Of a stretch of 35,744 nucleotides of DNA, positions 23,869-35,576 are shown piece by piece. This DNA is from Clostridiales bacterium (GTDB taxonomy: Bacteria; Bacillota; Clostridia; Saccharofermentanales; Saccharofermentanaceae): the NCBI GenBank assembly GCA_017515465.1, contig JAFWFV010000057.1:1-35744 (forward strand), in the 5' to 3' direction. How positions within the stretch are numbered: the first letter of the stretch is position 1; every line of letters begins with the position of its first letter. The notes under the pieces were generated by a model, which did no database searches, was not told where the DNA came from, and was given only the letters and a program-made list of their open reading frames with translations. Both the position numbers and the translations under genes were made by a program.

Positions 23869-26022
23869 GTGAACAGGAGATCTGCCGCAGTTGTGTTGTG
23901 TTTTTCTATCTTATCGTCTTCCATCATGTCCTGCTCAGATACATACGAACCCGTATATAAAGAGATATCCTACGTTGAGAACGGAGCCTGGTGGGACGAC
24001 GAGATCATCACTCCTGACATAAGTGGGATCGAAGACCTCAGATTATTCAATATAATTGAAGCCTGCCCTGATTCTTTTGTAGCAGAAGTCCACTGTAACA
24101 ATTTTACTAAACCCTATCTCCTGGCCAGTTACGGTATGGACGGTACTTTTAACGGGATCATAGATCCGTCACCGTACGGGAACGTACAGGACGTGTTCAG
24201 ATCTGATACAGATAAAGAGTATTATGTCCTGGTATCAGGAAGTATTGAAGGATCAGACAGTATAACCAATCTGATATACCGTGCAGACTTTGAAACAGGT
24301 GTACTTACCGATCCTGAAGAGATCAGACTGCCATCACAGACTAAGACTTTCTCCGGTATCAGTAATGTGATCCGGAACGGAGATACAACTATCTATTCAT
24401 ACAGTCAGTACGACTTGGGTGCTGACGGCAGGCAGTCCATCGTCATTGATGACGGCAGCGGAGATATAGCTGAATATGAGCCTGATTTTATTCCCGGAGC
24501 TGATCAGTATTATGTCATGAACCTGATGACATATGGCGGGGACATCGTCGCTGAGATAAATGTATCTATTGGCGACGAGAACCTGGGATACATAATGAGA
24601 CTGGATCCGTCAACAATGAAGGTTACAACGCTGGAACTGTCTGACGGCTTCATGAACGGCGTGGTCATAGACGGTCAGGGGGTATTCTATTCAACATACG
24701 ATCCGGATCAAATGTGTGGCGGCAACGTGATCTACAGATATGACCCAGCTTCGGATGAGATAAGCGAATACCTGGATCTGAACGATACATACATCAATAA
24801 CGAGTTCGGTATGTCTGCCAATTACCGTGTCATATCCGCTGCAGATGACCAGCTGATACTCTCAACAGAACTAAGCGGCATCAGCTGGGGAAACGGAGAT
24901 CCGGTCCTCATGATACTCACCAGATCTGATCACGATCCTAATGAAGGCAAAAAAGTGATCGAATTGGGTTATCTCTCCTCTCAGCCGTACAATATCTGTT
25001 CTGCCGTCAATCAGTTCAACAGACAAAGTGATGAGTTCTATATCGTACCGACCGACAGATACCTGAACAAGCCGGATGATCTGGTAGAAGATATCAAAGG
25101 CGGAACTGGGCCTGACATGCTGATAATGGATTCCGGCTATGCCATGCTCAACAACGGGAAATATCTCACGGACGTCAGCAGCATGACAGGATCACAGGAC
25201 ATGATATATAGAGTCCCGGTGGGGGTGATCTACGACGGACTGATCGTCAGGACTTCCCTGCTTGCAGATCCCGGCAGACCCGGTGTCACGTTCGACGAAT
25301 ATAGGGATCTCACAATTGACGCCAACAACGGTATAAACGCACTTGGCAGCGATAACATTGATGTCTTTAACAAGCTGTTCAGGTTCTCTTCACCTGAGTT
25401 CTTCAATGAAGATGGACGATTATCACTGGATAACGAAGAGTTCAGGGCATTGTGCGAATATATACGTGACATGAGCATACCCACAGGCAATCCCCTGGGC
25501 ATGGAACCTGTAAGCGATCTGTCCTGGAAAGGCTATTCAGGCTTCTTTATGTATGCGGGCAAGTATGCTGAAGAATATTCGATCGTGGGGTACCCTTCCA
25601 TGGATGGCAATACTCCTGAACAGATGGATGTGGTTGGCATAGCTATAACGGCTTGCAGCCCGTCACAGGACGCATGCCGCAGTTTTATAGAGATGGTATC
25701 CGCCCCTGAGGTACAGAACCGGATCAGCAGTAATGATCCCTATTCCGTTGATGCCATGAGGATCAGAGCAGAGATCGTGACAGAGGAACAGAACAGGTTC
25801 AACAGACAAAGCACTGTGTCAGACAACGGCAACTGGGAAAACAAGATCGATCATTTCATGGATGAGATATCAGATGCACAATATGCACGGGACGTTGACA
25901 GCTCAGTACTGACCATACTCGACGAGGAGATCCAGCCCTATCTGGCCGGTCAGTGTGACATAGACGAAGTTATCCGTGTCTCTGAGAACAGGATCAATCT
26001 GATGCTGGCCGAGCGCGGATGA
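23869..26022 (+). CDS. Two-part lipoprotein with solute-binding-like C-terminal half
   Basis: 717 residues from GTG 23869, which follows AGGAGG by 8 bases. The signal peptide ends SIMSC, an acceptable lipobox (Cys about 24). Residues of about 50-355 are strand-rich with D-G turns (GDGSGDIAEYEP-type segments; YVMNLMTYGGDIVAEINVSI), suggesting a propeller. From about 360 the chain reads as a solute-binding-like domain: CSAVNQFNRQSDEFYIVP, GGTGPDMLIMDSG (the GPDMLI strand), and a C-terminal ACSPSQDACRSFIEMVSAPEVQ helix typical of family 1 SBPs. It has the same plan as the lipoprotein at 12244-14370 but is only distantly similar. No permease genes follow. A shortened relative of this gene lies just downstream at 26245-26447. 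Confidence 0.72.
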   Translation: MNRRSAAVVLCFSILSSSIMSCSDTYEPVYKEISYVENGAWWDDEIITPDISGIEDLRLFNIIEACPDSFVAEVHCNNFTKPYLLASYGMDGTFNGIIDPSPYGNVQDVFRSDTDKEYYVLVSGSIEGSDSITNLIYRADFETGVLTDPEEIRLPSQTKTFSGISNVIRNGDTTIYSYSQYDLGADGRQSIVIDDGSGDIAEYEPDFIPGADQYYVMNLMTYGGDIVAEINVSIGDENLGYIMRLDPSTMKVTTLELSDGFMNGVVIDGQGVFYSTYDPDQMCGGNVIYRYDPASDEISEYLDLNDTYINNEFGMSANYRVISAADDQLILSTELSGISWGNGDPVLMILTRSDHDPNEGKKVIELGYLSSQPYNICSAVNQFNRQSDEFYIVPTDRYLNKPDDLVEDIKGGTGPDMLIMDSGYAMLNNGKYLTDVSSMTGSQDMIYRVPVGVIYDGLIVRTSLLADPGRPGVTFDEYRDLTIDANNGINALGSDNIDVFNKLFRFSSPEFFNEDGRLSLDNEEFRALCEYIRDMSIPTGNPLGMEPVSDLSWKGYSGFFMYAGKYAEEYSIVGYPSMDGNTPEQMDVVGIAITACSPSQDACRSFIEMVSAPEVQNRISSNDPYSVDAMRIRAEIVTEEQNRFNRQSTVSDNGNWENKIDHFMDEISDAQYARDVDSSVLTILDEEIQPYLAGQCDIDEVIRVSENRINLMLAERG

Positions 26023-26122: not shown

Positions 26123-26157
26123 GTTCTGCCTCCTTCAGCAAACATTATACATGCCAA

Positions 26158-26243
26158 AATTGTCATTTTTCAAAAGTTAATACATGGCATTTTTGTCATT
26201 TTTCAAAGGTTCAGAACGTAATAATTGTCATTTTTACAAGGTT
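26158..26243. repeat. Three direct repeats of (A/T)(A/T)TTGTCATTTTT(C)AAAxGTT
   Basis: Copies at 26158-26178, 26191-26211 and 26223-26243, each 21 bases, start-to-start 33 and 32 bases (about three helical turns), differing at a few positions. The first copy contains the -35 of the promoter for the ATPase fragment. Two readings fit: tandem regulator sites for that gene, or the multiple terminal repeats found at the ends of IS21-type elements (TGTCATTTTT-like), left behind after loss of the element. No IS21 genes are present in the window. Confidence 0.65.
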
Positions 26244-26244
26244 A

Positions 26245-26447
26245 CGGCGGATGATTCAATAACAGAAAATCTGCCGCCTGCCCAGTCTTTTCCTGCAAAA
26301 ACCTATTGTAACAATGTTACTAATCCATTTATTCCGGCATGTTACGGCATGCAGCTCGGTTCAGTGCCCATGCCACAGCTTCATAGAGATGAAGTCATCC
26401 AGCTTGCAGAGAACAGGACCAATCTGATTCCGGCTGAGAGGAAGTGA
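26245..26447 (+). pseudogene. Internally deleted remnant of the two-part lipoprotein gene
   Basis: Two blocks match the intact gene upstream. QSFPAKTYCNNVTNPF and then ACYGM align with DSFVAEVHCNNFTKPY and ASYGM (about residues 72-92 of the intact protein). The end, RDEVIQLAENRTNLIPAERK, aligns with the intact C-terminus IDEVIRVSENRINLMLAERG. DNA similarity is visible as well, for example tgtaacaat and gagaacagga in both. About 590 codons between the blocks are missing, and there is no signal peptide or ribosome site, so it is a decayed tandem copy. Its stop is 9 bases from the helicase gene end. Confidence 0.75.
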
Positions 26448-26456
26448 AAGACTCTT

Positions 26457-29240
26457 TTAATCCTTACTGCTTATTTTTCTTATTTTCTGAACCTTTTTCA
26501 AAAGACACATATTCACGATCAGATTATCTGGTTTATCATGATTGATGTTGTTGTTAGCTTTTTCCAACCTTTTTTTATCAACACTTTTCTTAAGCAGTCC
26601 ATATCCGCCTTCGACTGTCTTGTCATATATTTGACTGATTATCTCATCAGCGGGATAGTTTTGAAGGGCCTTCAAGGTCAATCCCAGATCTTTCAGATTA
26701 TCATTAAGGAATCTTCTGCCTTTCACTTCATTCCTCTCATAGTTGTAAATACCAACTAGTATACGTTTCATTTTACCCCTCAAAAAGGACTTATCACGAG
26801 GAATGTTTGTAGAACCGAAGGAATCCTTAAGAGCATATAATACCCCACTAGTTTCATAGGGAATCTTATATGTTGTAATCTTCAAGCGCGAGTTAGCCGA
26901 TTTCCCTTCCTGCTTACGTTCAACTGTATTGGGAATAAAGCGTGCCCTTTCCAAACCAAACAATGTGTAGTGAGTTGATAATATGTTCCCATATGAATGA
27001 TTGACTCTATCCTTTGAAATCAACTTATACGCCAGACTGATATATGACAGATCCATATAGAAAACCCTTTCCCTCATCCATTCAAATTCGTCAAACAGCG
27101 GAAAAGAAGTATCAATATGGCTTTCCATATCATGATCATACAACCTTATTTGTCTGATATTCCCATATTCATCAGTTTCATAATCGTTATATATATATGC
27201 GGCTGATATCTTCTTTATAGATTCTTTGATCCAATTATCGAGCTTTTCATTTTTACTTGGTAGATTACTGTTCAATCCTAAAAGCAATCTTGTTACAGTA
27301 CTTATTATTGCTTGGTCATCCGATATATGGTTTACCGTACAAGTATAAAGAGCATTGAAAACAACAAAATCAAAAAAGTTTAGTCTCCCGTCCGGCATTT
27401 CTATTCTATAGCTGATCCCATTAATGACAACGTTGTCGTAATACTTCTTCCCTGTAGTGTTAAAGATACTTGTATCACTACAGTAACTATATAGTTCTTG
27501 AGAATTATTAACAACAATCCATGGCATAGTCATGCCTTTTATGAATATAGATCTCATATTGATCTTTATCTGATCATTAAAAAGAACCCTGATCATTGAT
27601 TTTGTTTTATTGATGGATAGATCTTCCGCATCACTTTTTGAACTATCAGAAATCAGGATCTTGTCTAATTTGTCTTCTATTGTCTTGGCGTCCAGATCTA
27701 ATAATTCTTTCAAACTAATAGTATTATCAGGCTCAGACTGAGTATTTCTTTCTTCATCACTCTTAATGATCCACTCCCAAAGCGAAAGGTAATCCCACAG
27801 CTTGATACGATTGACAACGGTTACATAATTTTCGTTTATTTTTTCTTGATCAGCTGCCTGTTTTAAGAATTGATTAAGCATTTTTAATGAACCATCACGT
27901 GAGTATAAACAACGGCAATTGATCCCAAATGCGTTATTGCTACGGATACGTCCCGCTTCCTGTAAATAGTAGTTCCAGGATTCAGGCATCCCTACCATAA
28001 CTACTTCCTGGATACTACTAATGTCTACGCCCATTGCAAGCGCTTTTGTTGCCAGAACCTTAGTTTCTCTAAGATTCGTAGATACTCTTGCTTTACTCTC
28101 AGGATTTTTTAGTATTTCCAGTATCTTTTCCTTGTCTCTGGATTCAAGATCACCTCTGAATGTTAGCATATAGATGGTTTTATTCTCTTCTTCTATACTT
28201 CCCGTCCTTTCCTCGTATACGGTTGCATCGACATTGATGCGGGCATAACTACCGTTCATTAGAATAGATTTGTCTATTTTCGCATTTCTGCTTCCATAAT
28301 ATTCTCCATGTTGATCATCAATTACAATTTGTTTCAACTTTAGTCGGTTGTCTTCACTTTTCTCGGGATCACTATTTGCATTTATTCTCTCGCCGGCATT
28401 TACTATCATTGATTTAAATCTATTAATATCCTTGTATTCATTGAAGAAAAAAATACTGATCCTTTGTCTTGTAAAGTCAAACAGAAGTTTATTTAGGAGA
28501 TCCTGAGATTTACTATTATATCTTTCAACAATAGATCCTCTTTTGGTTTTATTGTCGATTCTGATGACATCTTTATCCTCAATCCCAAGGAGTAGTTTAT
28601 AGAGATCAAGCTGGACATTTGTTAAAGTAGCCGTAAGAGACAGTATTCTTAGTTTTTCGTTAGTATTTCGGACCATATCAATAAAGGTAGGAATGAACAT
28701 ATACTCTCTTCTGAAGGTTGATCCCCAGTCAAACATGGTGTGAGCCTCATCTATTACGATCATCTGAATCTTTACTTCTTTTTCTTGTGCAATTTTCAAT
28801 ATCTTAAGGGAGTTCTCAAACAGTTCTTCCGGAGACACGTATACAATAGAATACTTTATACTAAATCTATTAATGAAGTCATTGACACTACATGCCTTAG
28901 ATTTTTCATAACACAAATTGAAAGACTGGATCTGATCTTTGATAATAGCCATCAACGGTTCAATAACAATTACTATTCCATCTTTTTTATTATGTGCAGC
29001 AAAGTATCTGTACAAAGATGATTTGCCCATTCCCGTTGGTAGTAATCCCAATGTATTACTACCTTCCTCCAGGATCTTAACCATGACAGGACGCTGGTAA
29101 TTGTCCCATCTTTCCTGATCCCATTTTACCTTTTTGTCATCTCGCCAAGAATCATTTTCCGTTATTGCCTTGTGTTCAAGGTCATCCTTAAGCAAACGGC
29201 AGATCTCTGACAATTGTTCTTCTATAGTATTGTGATCCAT
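26457..29240 (-). CDS. RecQ-like superfamily 2 helicase with long unrecognised C-terminal half
   Basis: 927 residues. An N-terminal region is followed by the SF2 core: RWDNYQRPVMVKIL (Q-motif-like position), Walker A GLLPTGMGKSS (68-75), the DEAH box VIDEAHTMFDWG (164-167), motif III LSLTATLT (201-205), motif V ATKALAMGVDI (397-407) and motif VI YLQEAGRIRSN (427-433). The fixed DEAH-hxxWG and Q-E-x-G-R pattern is that of RecQ-type DNA helicases. An extra stretch of about 90 residues interrupts the second RecA lobe (about 265-360). Residues of about 450-927 show no zinc-binding or HRDC signature that I can see. It starts 7 bases after the stop of the RNA polymerase gene, so the two form one operon. 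Base composition is AT-rich compared with flanking genes (17 GC of 60 in the line at 27181), a sign of transfer. Confidence 0.85.
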   Translation of the reverse strand: MDHNTIEEQLSEICRLLKDDLEHKAITENDSWRDDKKVKWDQERWDNYQRPVMVKILEEGSNTLGLLPTGMGKSSLYRYFAAHNKKDGIVIVIEPLMAIIKDQIQSFNLCYEKSKACSVNDFINRFSIKYSIVYVSPEELFENSLKILKIAQEKEVKIQMIVIDEAHTMFDWGSTFRREYMFIPTFIDMVRNTNEKLRILSLTATLTNVQLDLYKLLLGIEDKDVIRIDNKTKRGSIVERYNSKSQDLLNKLLFDFTRQRISIFFFNEYKDINRFKSMIVNAGERINANSDPEKSEDNRLKLKQIVIDDQHGEYYGSRNAKIDKSILMNGSYARINVDATVYEERTGSIEEENKTIYMLTFRGDLESRDKEKILEILKNPESKARVSTNLRETKVLATKALAMGVDISSIQEVVMVGMPESWNYYLQEAGRIRSNNAFGINCRCLYSRDGSLKMLNQFLKQAADQEKINENYVTVVNRIKLWDYLSLWEWIIKSDEERNTQSEPDNTISLKELLDLDAKTIEDKLDKILISDSSKSDAEDLSINKTKSMIRVLFNDQIKINMRSIFIKGMTMPWIVVNNSQELYSYCSDTSIFNTTGKKYYDNVVINGISYRIEMPDGRLNFFDFVVFNALYTCTVNHISDDQAIISTVTRLLLGLNSNLPSKNEKLDNWIKESIKKISAAYIYNDYETDEYGNIRQIRLYDHDMESHIDTSFPLFDEFEWMRERVFYMDLSYISLAYKLISKDRVNHSYGNILSTHYTLFGLERARFIPNTVERKQEGKSANSRLKITTYKIPYETSGVLYALKDSFGSTNIPRDKSFLRGKMKRILVGIYNYERNEVKGRRFLNDNLKDLGLTLKALQNYPADEIISQIYDKTVEGGYGLLKKSVDKKRLEKANNNINHDKPDNLIVNMCLLKKVQKIRKISSKD

Positions 29241-29247
29241 AATTTAA

Positions 29248-31995
29248 TTACCGTTCATAATTCGTAAATCCATTAAAATAATTCGGATTATCATTATCAC
29301 TAAATAAACTTCGCACACTAATATTATCTACGAATTTCTTTTTTTTATTGTTATTTCCAATACCTCCATATGCACACTCATCTATTAAATACCCTCTTAT
29401 TTTTGTACTAAGTGGGGAGTGGGGCAAACCATTCACTCTAGATTCATTAAAAATACTATCAAAGTAAGAATTCTTAATGCCACCGAGATCCAGGATATTT
29501 TCATATGTTTCCTTTATATGATTACTGTCTGTTTCTTCTCTCCAGCATTTCATCAGATCATCTCTTAGACACTTAAATACTTTCTTCGCCTTAGAAGGAT
29601 TATGCTTGATCTGCAATAATGCCTGAGTGTTTGGATAAGTTAATTCCAGAACAGCCTTAGGGCATTTTCCTCTAAAACCTCTCATTAGTTGCTGGGAATA
29701 CCGTCCCGCTATACCAACTGCTGCTTTTATTGCAGTTGCGATCTGAACATTAACTCTATCATCATCACTTGCCTTTCCTTCAAAGTACGTCTGGTAAGAT
29801 TTTATATCACCTTTCTTTGCACCACTATTGATGATTTTTTCGAATGATCTTATTACAGCTTCGTCATCCTTGAGATCAATCATTGCATTTTCCAGGAAAT
29901 AGTCATCGGCAAATGATTGCGATAAATATACATCAATGTCCTGACTCTTCAAATCACCAGGTTTAAGAAAAGGATTGCTGTCCTTTTGATGATAGTATGA
30001 TGCTATATCCATTCCAGTATTAATGATCAACACTTTGGCTTCTTTCCCATCATCAAAGATATTGTTGTCACCAGTAATAGCAAATAATTCTATGGCCTCT
30101 TTATGCGCTTTGATTGCATCTAATTCTTCCCTGTTGCGTAACAACAGTTTCAGATCATCTGTTGATGGAACAGAGCTGTCGTTTACGGTTTTTAGAGCAT
30201 CATCAACTGCTTTTTGACGTTTATTCAACAGTTCTTCAATATTGCTTCCCCCTGCCTCAGAACAATTGCTGTAAATCTTCACAACCGCTACAGTATCACC
30301 ATCAAAATCACCGTCAAAGCTTTTTGCAACAACGGGATTGATGGCCACTCCGGTAAGATCGCTATCGATTCTTGACACTTTCATATATCTGACATTTGAA
30401 TCTCGAAGCACAGGATCACGCCACAAAAGGACATAATCATCTTCCATGATTTTTAGTTTGTCGGCGATTTGCTCACTAACAGCTACAGACCCGATGCCAA
30501 GTCTGGGATCAGGCGTCCAAATTGCCGTTGCCGAATTCTTTACTGCATGTGTCATTAACATGCTCTTAAATAAATTTTCTTTTTTGTACGTCAAATGTGG
30601 CACCTTAATATCATCAGTGTTATCATCCTGATCATTACCGGATTTCTGATTGTCTATCTTGACTTCGCTGGTATATGAAACGTCATATAAATATCTCTTT
30701 TTGAGAGTGTTCCTGATCATTTCGTATTCGTCGTTGATCTTTTTTTCATCATCTGACTTAAGTATTCGCCGATAATGCTCGGTTATATCATCCTCCACAG
30801 TTCTGCCGGTATCATCAACAAACCCGGGACGAAGATGAAGTGGAATAAAAGTAATATTAACGGGTTTATTCACTGTGGGATAATACGAATAACAAATTGG
30901 TGCATCAAAGTGAAGGACTGCATCTGATAGAACATCTATTATCTCTTCATTTATATCTATTTTCAACTTATCTTCCTCAGAATCATCAAATTCGTATCCT
31001 CTTTCGATGATAGTTTTTTTTATGACGGATAATATCTCCTTTGCCGTGAAAGCATCTACCTTTCTTCTTCTAATCTTACTTGTCTCGATTGATACTTGTA
31101 ATTGCTTTTCTTTCCTATTAATCAAAACATAACTAATACTAATATCTAATAAATAATTAAATGCAGTCTCATAACTCGTATTACAATAAACAGAATTAAG
31201 GATATAGATGGCATCGGCAGTATCGATCATAGCTCTTTCGCCACTCCCATAAAAATACTTCAACATATTCTCAGCATCCTTTGAGCATAGAGCCCAAGAC
31301 AACTGAGGAGAGGCTTTACGGGATCTATTATTAACATAATCCTCCTCTGTGTAGATCTTCGTCTTCTTGTCAGCAAATTGACGTGTAATAATGTACTGGG
31401 CTTCACCTATTATCTGCCCTATTTCTACATCATCATCTTTGAGAACATGGGGGGTAGACATCAACTCCCTTGCTGTAGCACCGTTAAATCTTGAGAGACC
31501 GGAATACGGTGAAGCAATTACATCTAATCCGGGATTATATTTGAAGACTTTATGAAGTTTGAATAGAGGATCTTCCTCATTTATCTCCTTGTCCGGATCA
31601 ACTATTATAGAAATGACTCCTTTATTCCCTCCACGATCCAGCATCTTATCACCGATCTTAAGAGGACGTAATTGTCCTGGATTCATTGCATCAGGAACTT
31701 TATGATCATTAGCGAATCTTTTAGAAACAACAAATCCATCTTCCATGTTCCATCCGCCACAAGTCATAAGTGCAGTTTGAACAGGTTCCGTAATGCTATA
31801 GGCACGCATCAGATTGGAAAACACCATCTGGTTCCTGTCGAATGGATTATATTTTGAATAAGCTTTCAAAAATTCGTGCCCGAAAATAGGGGTTCTGGCT
31901 TTTTGCTTGTCATTTGTCGGAATTATATATCCATCTGTGTCAACCTTGGCCCCTTCTGCAAGGTATCTTACTATTCCCTGTTTATTTCCTGATGT
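29248..31995 (-). CDS. Single-chain two-barrel DNA-dependent RNA polymerase (YonO-like), 5'-truncated
   Basis: The formal start is TTG 31869 (873 residues, used for numbering), but it has no ribosome site, and good coding reads on for 42 more codons to 31995. Beta-like parts: upstream KQGIVRYLAEGAKVDTDGYI resembles the stretch after TPEG in RpoB; FDRNQMVFSNLMRAYSITEP (10-29) matches RpoB DANRALMGxNMQRQAVP; GGWNMEDGFVVSKR gives E43 D44; KIGDKMLDRGGNKGVIS gives both active-site lysines, K75 and K83. Beta'-like parts: LLWRDPVLRDSNVRY (481-495) matches NRAPTLHR; SFDGDFDGDTVAV holds the Mg2+-binding D521, D523, D525; SGAKKGDIKSYQ (682-693) resembles the bridge helix; IATAIKAAVGIAGRYSQQL (710-728) resembles the trigger-loop region. 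Only 31 residues separate the ED and GDKM motifs, far fewer than in RpoB, so this is a minimal enzyme rather than fused core subunits. It is co-transcribed with the helicase. Confidence 0.88.
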   Translation of the reverse strand, partial: TSGNKQGIVRYLAEGAKVDTDGYIIPTNDKQKARTPIFGHEFLKAYSKYNPFDRNQMVFSNLMRAYSITEPVQTALMTCGGWNMEDGFVVSKRFANDHKVPDAMNPGQLRPLKIGDKMLDRGGNKGVISIIVDPDKEINEEDPLFKLHKVFKYNPGLDVIASPYSGLSRFNGATARELMSTPHVLKDDDVEIGQIIGEAQYIITRQFADKKTKIYTEEDYVNNRSRKASPQLSWALCSKDAENMLKYFYGSGERAMIDTADAIYILNSVYCNTSYETAFNYLLDISISYVLINRKEKQLQVSIETSKIRRRKVDAFTAKEILSVIKKTIIERGYEFDDSEEDKLKIDINEEIIDVLSDAVLHFDAPICYSYYPTVNKPVNITFIPLHLRPGFVDDTGRTVEDDITEHYRRILKSDDEKKINDEYEMIRNTLKKRYLYDVSYTSEVKIDNQKSGNDQDDNTDDIKVPHLTYKKENLFKSMLMTHAVKNSATAIWTPDPRLGIGSVAVSEQIADKLKIMEDDYVLLWRDPVLRDSNVRYMKVSRIDSDLTGVAINPVVAKSFDGDFDGDTVAVVKIYSNCSEAGGSNIEELLNKRQKAVDDALKTVNDSSVPSTDDLKLLLRNREELDAIKAHKEAIELFAITGDNNIFDDGKEAKVLIINTGMDIASYYHQKDSNPFLKPGDLKSQDIDVYLSQSFADDYFLENAMIDLKDDEAVIRSFEKIINSGAKKGDIKSYQTYFEGKASDDDRVNVQIATAIKAAVGIAGRYSQQLMRGFRGKCPKAVLELTYPNTQALLQIKHNPSKAKKVFKCLRDDLMKCWREETDSNHIKETYENILDLGGIKNSYFDSIFNESRVNGLPHSPLSTKIRGYLIDECAYGGIGNNNKKKKFVDNISVRSLFSDNDNPNYFNGFTNYER

Positions 31996-31998
31996 CTA
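31985..31998. other. Head-to-head junction of two truncated genes
   Basis: On the minus strand the polymerase frame is open until a TAG at 31998-31996. On the plus strand the AAA+ frame is open from the same point (PDVYDTICDL). There is no spacer, promoter or ribosome site for either. Base composition also changes here, AT-rich to the left and near 47% GC to the right. This marks a rearrangement breakpoint or an assembly join. Confidence 0.7.
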
Positions 31999-32017
31999 CG
32001 ACACCATATGTGATCTG

Positions 32018-34606
32018 ATGAAGACAAATTTCGCTGCAAAAGCCTGCCAGGCAGCGCCGGATGAGATCACTATGCATCAGTTCCAGGAAATGTTTCTGGA
32101 AGGCAAAAGACACGAGAACGTTCAAGGATCGGTTGCCAGGGTCGTAGACTCTTCGAGGCTCTGGACATACTACCTGAATCCTGATGAAGAGAAGACCCTT
32201 CCGTTTACAATGGAAGAACTGATCGCATCTGAAGATGTTCCCGTTCTCGATATCTACGACAAGAGCTTCTCTGATGAACTTGTCAACATAACGGAACACC
32301 GCCTCAGTGCCTGTGATAATGTAAACCTTATTCATTACATTATATCAGGCAACAGCCGTCAGGCAGAGTTCCAGCTGGCTAATGCTCTCGTTGGCACGCT
32401 GGTCAACTCCAACCGTCTGAGCAGCAGACGTATCGTTTATCTCAGCGATCTGTCTCCCAAGATATACTCGAAGAATCACTACTTTGAGACTATCATTGAG
32501 AATAACTATGGCGGAACCGTAGTTATCGATCTGACCGAAAAATTCGGTGATTCAGCTTCAGAATACCTTACCGCATGCAGATACCTCAATAATCTGTTCA
32601 AGAAGCACTGCAACAAGTGTCTGTTCATCTTTACCTATGATATAAATGCTACAGGCTATTCCTACTATCTCCTTCCTGAGATCAGGAAGTTTGTACTCAC
32701 ATTGCCTCTCAAGGAAGGAGAGGGCAACAGACGTGCAGCTTCAGCATATTTGAAGACACTTATCAGGAATTCTGAATATGCAAAGTTCGTAAAACATACA
32801 AATGAGTATATGAAGCTGTTCGAAGGCTCTCATTTTTCCCAGACAGATGTTCTGGATGCTTTCGAGAAGTTCGGCCCCTGGTGCATGAACAAGATGTTGA
32901 ATGATATCTATGATTTTGACATCTCTGACGAGTTCTCCCTTGACAGGGAAAACGACGCGGAATCAGCATCCAAGCTCCTGGACGGTCTCATAGGTCTGGA
33001 TATCGTCAAGAAACAGATAGCAAGTATCATTGCATCTGACATTGTCGAGAAAGAGCGCCGCAAACATGGTGACGATTATCAGTCGATATCGTCACACATG
33101 ATCTTTGCAGGCAATCCCGGATCAGCCAAGACCACAGTTGCAAAGCTCTTTGCCGGCATCGCAAAGCAGAAGAATATCCTCAAGAGCGGCGTGTTCGTTG
33201 AGCGCAGCGGAACAGACCTGAATGGTCCTTTCTGCGTTCCTGCCATCAGGGAAGCCTTCATAGCTGCACGTGGCGGCGTTCTGTTCATAGACGAAGCCTA
33301 TGCCATTGAGCTCCGTGATGCGGTAACTACACTTCTCCAGGAAATAGAAAACCAGAGAGATAATGTTATCGTTATCCTTGCCGGCTACAGTGACAGGATG
33401 CATGCATTCCTGGAACGTAATGAAGGCCTCAAGAGCAGGATACCTCACTGGGTTGATTTTCCTGACTATTCAACAGCCGAGCTGACAGAGATCTTCAAAT
33501 ACATGATGGACAGACGCGGCATGAAGGCTGACGATGATGCCATCAAGTCAGCAAGTCAGATATTCGACAGGGTCAGGATCCTCGAGAACTTCGGTAACGG
33601 CAGGTATGTCCGTAACCTGATCGACCGTGCGGTCCTCAACCAGTCTTCAAGATTGATGTCATCCTATGAATGTGCTGACAGCATTCCTACAAGTGAACTC
33701 TACAGGATCACGGCAGATGACATCAGCAGTCTCCACGAAGGCTTGAAGGAAGCCAGAGAGCCCGGTGCTGCCAAGAAAGAGCTCGATTCCATGATCGGCC
33801 TTGCATCAGCTAAGGAAGTCATCAACAAGGCTATTGCCAAGTTTAAGCTCGACAAGATGTGCATGGACAAGGGCATACCCAGGACCAGAGGCGCAATGCA
33901 TATGGTCTTTACCGGCAATCCCGGAACTGCAAAGACAACTGTTGCCAGGCTGTGTGCAGAGATACTGAGTGATGAGAAGATCCTCTCTACAGGCAGCTTT
34001 GTCGAGGTCGGCAGAGCAGATCTGGTCGGTGACCATGTTGGTGCCACAGCCAGGATCGTCAAGAAGAAGTTCCGCGAAGCACAGGGCGGTGTACTGTTCA
34101 TTGATGAAGCATACTCACTTTGTGACCATTATGAAGGCAGCTTTGGTGATGAAGCCATCAACACCATCGTTCAGGAAATGGAAAACCACCGTGAAGATGT
34201 TGTTGTCATCTTTGCAGGATATCCTCAGCCCATGAAGGACTTCCTGGAACGCAACCCCGGAATGAGATCAAGGATCGCATTCTATGTTGACTTTGAAGAC
34301 TATACTACTGATGAACTCTGTCAGATCACTCAGCTGATGCTCTCCAGAAAGCAGATGTCCATAACTGATCAGGCTATGGACAAGCTCCGCAGCAACTATG
34401 ATTCCGCACGTGTCAGCAATGACTACGGCAACGGCAGATATGTCAGAAAGCTTCTGGAAGAAGCAGAGATGAATCAGGCCAGAAGGATCATCGGGCTGCC
34501 TCTCGATGAACAGACAACAGAAGTCATTACGACTATTGATGCCTCTGACATTCCTGAATTCACTACAACAAAGAAGACAACTTACAAAATGGGCTTTGCA
34601 AGTTGA
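32018..34606 (+). CDS. Double AAA+ ATPase of the CbxX/CfxQ (SpoVK-like) family, probably 5'-truncated
   Basis: 862 residues from the first in-frame ATG. Residues 1-310 form an unrecognised N-terminal region with strand-helix alternation (RRIVYLSDLSPKIY; GGTVVIDLTEKF), perhaps a degenerate nucleotide-binding fold. Two CbxX-type AAA+ modules follow. Module 1 has FAGNPGSAKTTVAK, GVLFIDEAYA and RNEGLKSRIPHWVDF (arginine finger). Module 2 has FTGNPGTAKTTVAR, GVLFIDEAYS and RNPGMRSRIAFYVDF. Both Walker A and B boxes are intact. Family members remodel protein partners. The open frame reaches back to the junction near 31988 and has no ribosome site at 32018, so the true start was probably lost; the further upstream frame to 31907 is antisense to the polymerase gene and should not be trusted. 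A strong terminator follows. Confidence 0.82.
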   Translation: MKTNFAAKACQAAPDEITMHQFQEMFLEGKRHENVQGSVARVVDSSRLWTYYLNPDEEKTLPFTMEELIASEDVPVLDIYDKSFSDELVNITEHRLSACDNVNLIHYIISGNSRQAEFQLANALVGTLVNSNRLSSRRIVYLSDLSPKIYSKNHYFETIIENNYGGTVVIDLTEKFGDSASEYLTACRYLNNLFKKHCNKCLFIFTYDINATGYSYYLLPEIRKFVLTLPLKEGEGNRRAASAYLKTLIRNSEYAKFVKHTNEYMKLFEGSHFSQTDVLDAFEKFGPWCMNKMLNDIYDFDISDEFSLDRENDAESASKLLDGLIGLDIVKKQIASIIASDIVEKERRKHGDDYQSISSHMIFAGNPGSAKTTVAKLFAGIAKQKNILKSGVFVERSGTDLNGPFCVPAIREAFIAARGGVLFIDEAYAIELRDAVTTLLQEIENQRDNVIVILAGYSDRMHAFLERNEGLKSRIPHWVDFPDYSTAELTEIFKYMMDRRGMKADDDAIKSASQIFDRVRILENFGNGRYVRNLIDRAVLNQSSRLMSSYECADSIPTSELYRITADDISSLHEGLKEAREPGAAKKELDSMIGLASAKEVINKAIAKFKLDKMCMDKGIPRTRGAMHMVFTGNPGTAKTTVARLCAEILSDEKILSTGSFVEVGRADLVGDHVGATARIVKKKFREAQGGVLFIDEAYSLCDHYEGSFGDEAINTIVQEMENHREDVVVIFAGYPQPMKDFLERNPGMRSRIAFYVDFEDYTTDELCQITQLMLSRKQMSITDQAMDKLRSNYDSARVSNDYGNGRYVRKLLEEAEMNQARRIIGLPLDEQTTEVITTIDASDIPEFTTTKKTTYKMGFAS

Positions 34607-34709: not shown

Positions 34710-35576
34710 ATGATTACACTTAACGATCTTTTCAACCTTAATGACCTTGATGAATACACTATCTGTCTGAACAACGACATCGAAGAAGATGTCTGTTCCC
34801 TGCTAGATCCAAATGAGACTCCCGAGAGAAAGGCCAGTCTGACCAAATATATCTCATGGAAGAAGTCCAATGGCATAAACAGGCACTTCAGGAAAATAGA
34901 TACTCCCAAGTGTCTGCAATTTCTGAGGATCAGAGGAACTGCCGATAAATGGCTGTTCCTGGGAGCATTTAAGTGCATGGGGTTCCATACTGACGGACAG
35001 GGAAATGAGATCTACGATCTGGAACGCATCTCAGATCATGAAAACTTCTCTGAACGTCTTATCGTCACTTATTGTAAGTCCAGCGGCGACAAGCAGGCCA
35101 AGCTCAACTGGGACAGATATCTGAGCATGGAGGTATGTGAGATCATGCCGGACATCTTTACCAGATCTTACAGACCCTTTCCGGGATACGACAGTATCAG
35201 ATTGTCATTCCCAGAGATGAAGCGTATCTTCAATACTCCTTACAGGAATTGGCAGGATGCGCTTTCTGTGATCAACGGCATCTATGTCATTGCTGATTCG
35301 AATACCGGTAAGTTATATGTCGGAAGTACATATGGCACCGACGGCTTATGGAACAGGTGGAAGTGTTACGTCAACACAAATGGCCACGGTGGTGATAAGG
35401 ACCTCAAGGCTCTTACCGATGCAGATCCTGATTATGCTGATAAGTATTTCCGGTTTACACTGATCGAATACTTCTTCAACATCAAAAATGGTCAGGATAA
35501 CAAAGAAGTTATCAAACGCGAGAGCTTCTGGAAGGAAGCCTTGCTTGCCAGATCTGCCGGTTATAACAATAACTGA
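34710..35576 (+). CDS. GIY-YIG nuclease-domain protein
   Basis: 288 residues from ATG 34710, with AGGAGG about 7 bases upstream. Residues 1-180 are an unrecognised, mainly helical region. The C-terminal GIY-YIG module shows NGIYVIADSNTGKLYVGSTYG (189-209, given in parts: GIY at 190-192, YVG at 203-205), the catalytic Arg216 in LWNRWKCY, His226, and the metal-binding Glu271 in IKRESFWKEAL. All key residues are present, so it should cut DNA. The plan (unknown N-terminal domain plus GIY-YIG) occurs in restriction-like and homing enzymes. No methylase is in the window. A terminator before it means it has its own promoter or relies on readthrough. Confidence 0.82.
   Translation: MITLNDLFNLNDLDEYTICLNNDIEEDVCSLLDPNETPERKASLTKYISWKKSNGINRHFRKIDTPKCLQFLRIRGTADKWLFLGAFKCMGFHTDGQGNEIYDLERISDHENFSERLIVTYCKSSGDKQAKLNWDRYLSMEVCEIMPDIFTRSYRPFPGYDSIRLSFPEMKRIFNTPYRNWQDALSVINGIYVIADSNTGKLYVGSTYGTDGLWNRWKCYVNTNGHGGDKDLKALTDADPDYADKYFRFTLIEYFFNIKNGQDNKEVIKRESFWKEALLARSAGYNNN

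Follow-up and report, generated by a model that had tools for sequence, protein, structure and literature searches.

The window, a stretch of 35,744 nucleotides from the draft genome of a Clostridiales bacterium (GenBank assembly GCA_017515465.1, contig JAFWFV010000057.1), carries on its minus strand a 5'-truncated gene for a single-chain RNA polymerase with two catalytic barrels, followed by a gene for a RecQ-like helicase. The interpretation that we consider likely is that this copy is probably inactive, and that its intact relatives are predicted to act as RNA polymerases that use DNA templates and need no sigma factor. The window chain is a member of a widespread family of giant RNA polymerases that combine two barrels in a single chain and lack the flap of the beta subunit.

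Polymerase frame and catalytic motifs

The polymerase gene, recognised by motifs, Pfam and homologues, is a minus-strand frame (31995..29248) that is preceded by a TAG codon and open for 915 codons, and its database entry (P0001, 832 residues) begins at residue 84. It represents the back two thirds of a single-chain RNA polymerase gene, with the front end missing. Position 31995, the limit of the interval given in the original prediction, is not a start: ATG, GTG and TTG are all absent between 31995 and 31869, and the first possible start is the TTG at 31869, before which no clear ribosome-binding site was found on inspection. Numbering from this TTG gives a chain of 873 residues, and in that numbering the motifs listed in the prediction are found where it had placed them: ED at 43-44, GDKM and GNKGV with K75 and K83, RDPVLR, DFDGD at 521-525, and SGAKKG.

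In the numbering of the 915-codon frame, the beta-type barrel is marked by an ED motif (residues 85-86; 31738..31743, minus strand), identified from sequence and alignment and equivalent by motif to ED 813-814 of E. coli beta, and by the catalytic lysine motif GDKMLDRGGNKGV (residues 115-127; 31615..31653, minus strand), supported by Pfam, hhalign and an alignment of 30 sequences in which K117, N124 and K125 are at least 90% conserved. The beta'-type features, all on the minus strand, are an LRP...YRRIL stretch (residues 384-412; 30760..30846), aligned with beta' by hhalign as the counterpart of LPPDLRP-DGGR-DLNDLYRRVI; an RDPVLR motif (residues 526-531; 30403..30420), supported by the same 30-sequence alignment and by hhalign; and the catalytic DFDGD (residues 563-567; 30295..30309), whose aspartates D563, D565 and D567 are invariant across the 30 sequences. 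An SGAKKG motif (residues 724-729; 29809..29826, minus strand) resembles a bridge helix by eye, the only way in which the bridge helix and trigger loop were compared, and its K727 is invariant in the alignment. Pfam domains of both types match the 873-residue chain above their curated cut-offs, RNA_pol_Rpb2_6 at residues 66-91 (2.8e-6) and RNA_pol_Rpb1_2 at residues 474-536 (4.5e-6). With these matches, the conservation in the alignment and the relatives described below, this set of motifs is far beyond chance.

Membership of a family of single-chain two-barrel polymerases

The prediction that one chain holds both catalytic barrels of the multisubunit RNA polymerase superfamily was borne out by Pfam, alignment, hhalign and structure models, which agree. 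The profile comparison and the structure prediction that it had proposed as checks were both carried out: besides the Pfam matches, the family profile aligns by hhalign with cellular beta (94.5%) and beta' (97.4%), and structure models match the beta and beta' chains of cellular RNA polymerase, with both barrels present in the modelled fold and neither lacking. The two cores lie on one chain in the window and in all relatives aligned. Sequence counterparts also occur outside the barrels (LRP/DLNDLYRR, GK..F and NRAP), and hhalign gave no confident alignment of the N-terminal part with beta. In those 23 of the 30 family rows where the spacing is measurable, ED and GDK lie 30-47 residues apart, versus 252 in E. 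coli beta, the flap insert being absent. No chain of QDE-1, YonO or the P23-45 enzyme appeared in the fold listings shown, an absence that excludes nothing.

A search of 5.8 billion proteins, with candidates limited to 0.55 to 1.75 times the query length, returned 14 matches, namely the window protein itself and 13 relatives (best E 5.7e-204), 11 of which have 939-1501 residues and the other two 670 and 791. Two wider protein searches gave 504 and 562 matches; among the named matches in the 120 listed from each, most are annotated 'hypothetical protein' and a few 'DNA-directed RNA polymerase'. In a set of 251 fetched relatives that leaves out P0001, the catalytic DxDGD is present in 249, the exceptions (P0010 and P0014) stopping short of that part, and DK..GNKG, with the two basic residues of the beta-type barrel, is present in 243. 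Intact relatives mostly have 1.2-2.5 thousand residues.

Truncation of the window copy

The closest intact relative of known genomic place is a protein of 1393 residues from Saccharofermentans sp. RUI031 (genome G051, locus L021), which belongs to the same genus. The window polymerase aligns only from residue 629 of this protein, about 630 N-terminal residues being missing, and the match to another relative (P0002, 1338 residues) starts at residue 484. The window frame begins in the middle of a conserved FDP-AT-(S)G-NQG-VRYL stretch, and the start motif FDP-AT-NQG can be likened by eye to CPIETPEGPNIG of beta. Residues invariant in 23 sequences lie in the lost part, and model residues 395-630, within the lost stretch, form the start of the beta-like fold.

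The divergent neighbour, a double-AAA gene of the SpoVK/CbbX type (31907..34606, plus strand), is likewise truncated at its 5' end. Its true homology starts at 31991, the position that aligns with residue 74 of a homologue with a checked start codon (locus L012), and all eight aligned AAA homologues extend upstream of this point. The two genes lose their 5' parts at a junction at 31991..31995, since 31991 is where AAA homology starts and the TAG before 31995 is where that of the polymerase stops. No unusual single-strand folding was found at the junction (z -0.65).

The compact spacing of the motifs had been taken as the sign of a minimal enzyme. This reading was rejected for the window copy on the evidence of the full-length alignment and of the AAA gene cut at the same point; the compactness stems from truncation. 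That it is nonetheless a working short enzyme, translated from the TTG at 31869 or from a later ATG and sufficing with the two barrels alone, is very unlikely. Such an enzyme would retain the catalytic residues of both barrels and the entire beta'-like part, and the phage polymerase YonO functions with few conserved domains (PMC5467207); however, the lost stretch holds the invariant residues and the modelled start of the beta-like fold, there is no start codon before 31869, and the relatives of 670 and 791 residues each cover one side of the enzyme only and give no indication of being designed short forms.

Either a deletion or a misjoin during assembly produced the junction. On one contig of G051, the polymerase and a divergently oriented AAA homologue (68% identical) lie 48 kb apart, so that a single deletion could make the window junction. 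Searches of the rest of the 2.24-Mb draft for the missing N-terminal parts of the polymerase (with P0002 and P0006 as queries) and of the AAA protein found neither at the sensitivity used, and within its clade of eight no other branch is as long as that of the window polymerase (1.11 versus 0.087-0.61), as expected under decay. All three observations speak against a misjoin, in which two places would have been wrongly joined and both genes would be intact in the real genome, with a polymerase of about 1.4 thousand residues. Two points temper this: G051 has a second AAA homologue (66% identity) on another contig, which weakens the argument for a deletion, and the remaining polymerase codons are free of stops and frameshifts. 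The undamaged frame would also fit a misjoin, as would the cutting of both genes within about 5 bp of each other and the state of the draft, which consists of 68 contigs and is 93% complete. On these grounds a misjoin is possible but unlikely, and the window copy is probably an inactive relic.

Distribution of the family

The family is patchy among relatives of the window organism. True members were found in two of 148 genomes of relatives, two of 115 genomes of the taxonomic family, two of 188 genomes of the order, and one of 391 genomes drawn from the class, the last being the window itself; these four sets overlap. A further 36 weak matches in the taxonomic family (E 1e-3), which lie around DxDGD in frames of 683-1353 residues, were read as housekeeping beta' and set aside; in all six of the 36 genomes inspected (L107-L112), the frame with NADFDGD is adjoined by an rpoB-type frame. 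By record title, the 42 loci in genome contigs comprise 33 from Actinomycetota (including Lumbricidophila, which we take to be a member), five from Lachnospiraceae, two from Oscillospiraceae, one from other Clostridia and one from Saccharofermentans. Among 72,556 plasmids, 13 carry the family: five of Staphylococcus, five of Lactococcus, and one each of Streptomyces, Gordonia and Rhodococcus.

In the window, the polymerase and helicase genes have GC contents of 0.37 and 0.35 versus 0.47-0.49 in the flanks. The proposed location in an accessory region agrees with this AT-rich composition and with the occurrence of the polymerase gene in two of 188 genomes of the order. A 63-nt stretch at the end of a solute-binding-protein gene (25951-26013) recurs 425 nt downstream at 26376-26438 (73%), and may mark the left edge of the AT-rich patch; three repeats spaced 33 nt (26157-26245) lie between its two copies.

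Conjugation genes beside relatives

Gene neighbourhoods were counted at 47 loci of the 50 sequences scanned, leaving out L009, which represents the locus of L021 again, and L063 and L064, two viral loci that gave no match to the polymerase queries. A VirD4/TraG-type coupling protein is encoded within the available stretch at 40 of the 47, including plasmids of Streptomyces, Gordonia and Staphylococcus and, by a weak match (59 bits), L056; the Streptomyces example matches Pfam T4SS-DNA_transf at 5e-20. The seven loci where it was not found are the window, L021, a Lactococcus plasmid (L096), and L046, L049, L058 and L060, the last four with little upstream sequence. In the window, no coupling protein was found within the 35.7 kb, the stretch to which the search was confined, and no MobL relaxase was found in the genome. 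At actinobacterial loci the genes usually run AAA, c2, coupling protein, polymerase, c3. A MobL relaxase is encoded upstream of the polymerase in Lachnospiraceae A4 (PF18555, 4.2e-37) and on the plasmid of Streptomyces NBC_01454, the flanks of other loci being mostly too short to reach that far.

Several further features were observed at these loci. The conserved genes c2 (~700 residues), c3 (~600 residues) and c38 (~840 residues), of unknown function, flank the conjugation-type polymerases, as at L051 (8069-15362) and L057 (7442-18032 and upstream genes), and those scanned gave no or only weak Pfam matches. The AAA_2 ATPase of the Streptomyces cluster (L051, 1-1500) contains a LAGLIDADG domain, possibly an intein. 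At L056, from Lachnospiraceae, the polymerase lies in two open reading frames of 700 and 1622 residues (from 1062 and 3122), for which a split, an intron-bearing or a broken copy are candidate readings. On two contigs from Oscillospiraceae, a TraG-type protein is accompanied by a protein of ~2,800 residues that is only weakly similar to the polymerase family (L061 from 5963, L062 from 3992 onwards) and is perhaps a more distant branch.

The RecQ-paired branch

A long RecQ-like SF2 helicase of 927 residues is encoded 7 nt downstream of the polymerase stop (26457..29240, minus strand). The helicase gene directly follows the polymerase gene at both mapped loci of this branch, the window and L021, and by the limits of the open reading frames the two genes overlap in G051; at the other 45 loci, short contigs included, no long RecQ-like helicase was found (E 1e-5). 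The two helicases share 27% identity and align over most of their length. Helicase matches occur in six of the 188 genomes of the order, where the two long ones belong to exactly the two polymerase carriers and the remaining four lie in frames of 637-712 residues. On the phylogenetic tree, the window polymerase and P0002-P0008 form one fully supported clade of eight (100/100) apart from the conjugation types; the genomic context is known for only two of the eight, and the branches of L095, L096, L049 and P0013 are very long and their placement is uncertain. Adjacency and co-occurrence lead us to predict that the polymerase and helicase are a functional pair.

The intact pair could be an anti-phage or anti-plasmid defence system, although we hold this to be doubtful. 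The helicase scores against the PADLOC models PsyrT (1.9e-28) and DpdF (9.2e-28) on a par with RecQ (1.2e-27), the pair is patchy and AT-rich, and a gene matching PADLOC UzuA (6.6e-55) lies beyond the AAA gene. However, the polymerase matches none of the PADLOC models, the presence of a RecQ-like helicase is by itself hardly informative, the UzuA-like gene is set apart from the pair by the AAA gene and the step in GC content, and the pair includes no visible nuclease or toxin partner.

Other features of the window

The UzuA-like gene encodes a GIY-YIG protein (34710-35576, plus strand), which matches the model over its whole length and is a candidate defence protein. Scans of the window gave no Rfam match and no tRNA.

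Comparison with known polymerases

Single-subunit two-barrel RNA polymerases are described from 'many phages and linear cytoplasmic plasmids of fungi' (PMC7281927), and 23 two-barrel families have been grouped in two clades (PMC10770324). The family described here shares with cellular RNA polymerase the catalytic motifs of both barrels, the counterparts outside them and the modelled match to both subunits, but the cellular enzyme has two chains and a flap insert, whereas the family has one chain, no flap, and a long N-terminal extension without a known fold.

YonO of phage SPbeta, a well-studied enzyme of ~100 kDa that transcribes phage late genes, resembles the family in its single chain, both barrels and aspartate triad (PMC5467207) and differs in its smaller size and phage role. 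A particular kinship with YonO was not upheld by the family profile, which aligns with cellular beta and beta' and not with a fragment of phi3T YonO (625 residues, single sequence; probability 0.1%), one of the two pieces in which phi3T yonO is annotated. A YonO-type phage polymerase in a prophage remnant would fit the single chain, the two barrels and the missing flap, and 'YonO-like' enzymes occur in Firmicutes (PMC5467207). It is nevertheless very improbable, given the failed alignment with that one fragment, a single weak match among 50,697 phage records, only two weak loci with a family alignment in viral contigs, and no phage gene recognised by Pfam among the 17 window proteins scanned. 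The helicase search of the viral contigs also found none.

The tail-tape RNA polymerase of phage P23-45 is likewise a single-chain two-barrel enzyme and acts as DNA enters the cell (PMC10770324), but it is a phage virion protein. Weak matches to enzymes of this type (8h2n, E 0.0027; Thermus phage G20c, 5e-3) lie only around DxDGD. In Neurospora, the single-chain two-barrel polymerase QDE-1 copies single-stranded and not double-stranded DNA, works with a RecQ helicase, QDE-3, and requires that helicase for its interaction with RPA (PMC2950127). QDE-1 is a eukaryotic enzyme of RNA interference, and a likeness in the way of working is suggested by gene adjacency only.

The gene name NCgl1702 presumably belongs to Corynebacterium glutamicum, which has a MobL relaxase (used as a control), as do two elements of the polymerase family. 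The available description of NCgl1702-like polymerases gives them as single-chain two-barrel enzymes without an SBHM flap insert, carried on bacterial mobile elements. Set side by side by description only, the NCgl1702 family and the relatives of the window polymerase are likely the same family; the RecQ-paired branch and its context do not appear in the available part of that description. In a literature search outside which most subscription papers lay, neither a polymerase of MobL-type conjugative elements nor a bacterial polymerase-RecQ pair turned up as the subject of a paper, and apart from the brief mention of NCgl1702 the family itself did not appear.

Proposed mechanism and significance

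On sequence grounds, intact relatives are predicted to synthesise RNA, and the absence of the insert on which sigma docks is consistent with no need for a host sigma factor. The type of template and the partnership with the helicase are inferred: an intact enzyme would take single-stranded or locally opened DNA as its template. In conjugative elements, it would copy the strand being transferred or genes of the element itself, with transfer itself as the source of single strands, matching the role of the helicase in the RecQ-paired branch. There, the helicase would unwind DNA and pass one strand on to the polymerase, comparable to the cooperation of QDE-3 with QDE-1 in Neurospora. The simplest working model for this branch is a DNA-opening helicase alongside a polymerase that lacks promoter-reading parts. 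A role in silencing or element maintenance is a guess.

A bolder proposal, offered tentatively, is that conjugative elements of Actinomycetota and Bacillota carry a giant one-piece RNA polymerase as a standard transfer part beside the coupling protein, which would transcribe the incoming single strand at once and without host sigma, and that Saccharofermentans may have taken this enzyme into its chromosome together with a RecQ helicase, giving a bacterial equivalent of the QDE-1/QDE-3 pair that would make RNA copies of exposed single-stranded DNA.

The window copy should not be mistaken for a minimal enzyme; what deserves attention is the family and the two settings in which its genes occur. 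If sigma-independent RNA synthesis is true of them, the intact relatives would be a little-studied second transcription machine. The first expression of genes on newly transferred single-stranded DNA is a central question of conjugation, and an element-encoded polymerase conserved beside the coupling protein would make this early expression directly testable. The RecQ-paired branch would give a bacterial setting for the helicase-fed polymerase copying single-stranded DNA that is known from fungal silencing.
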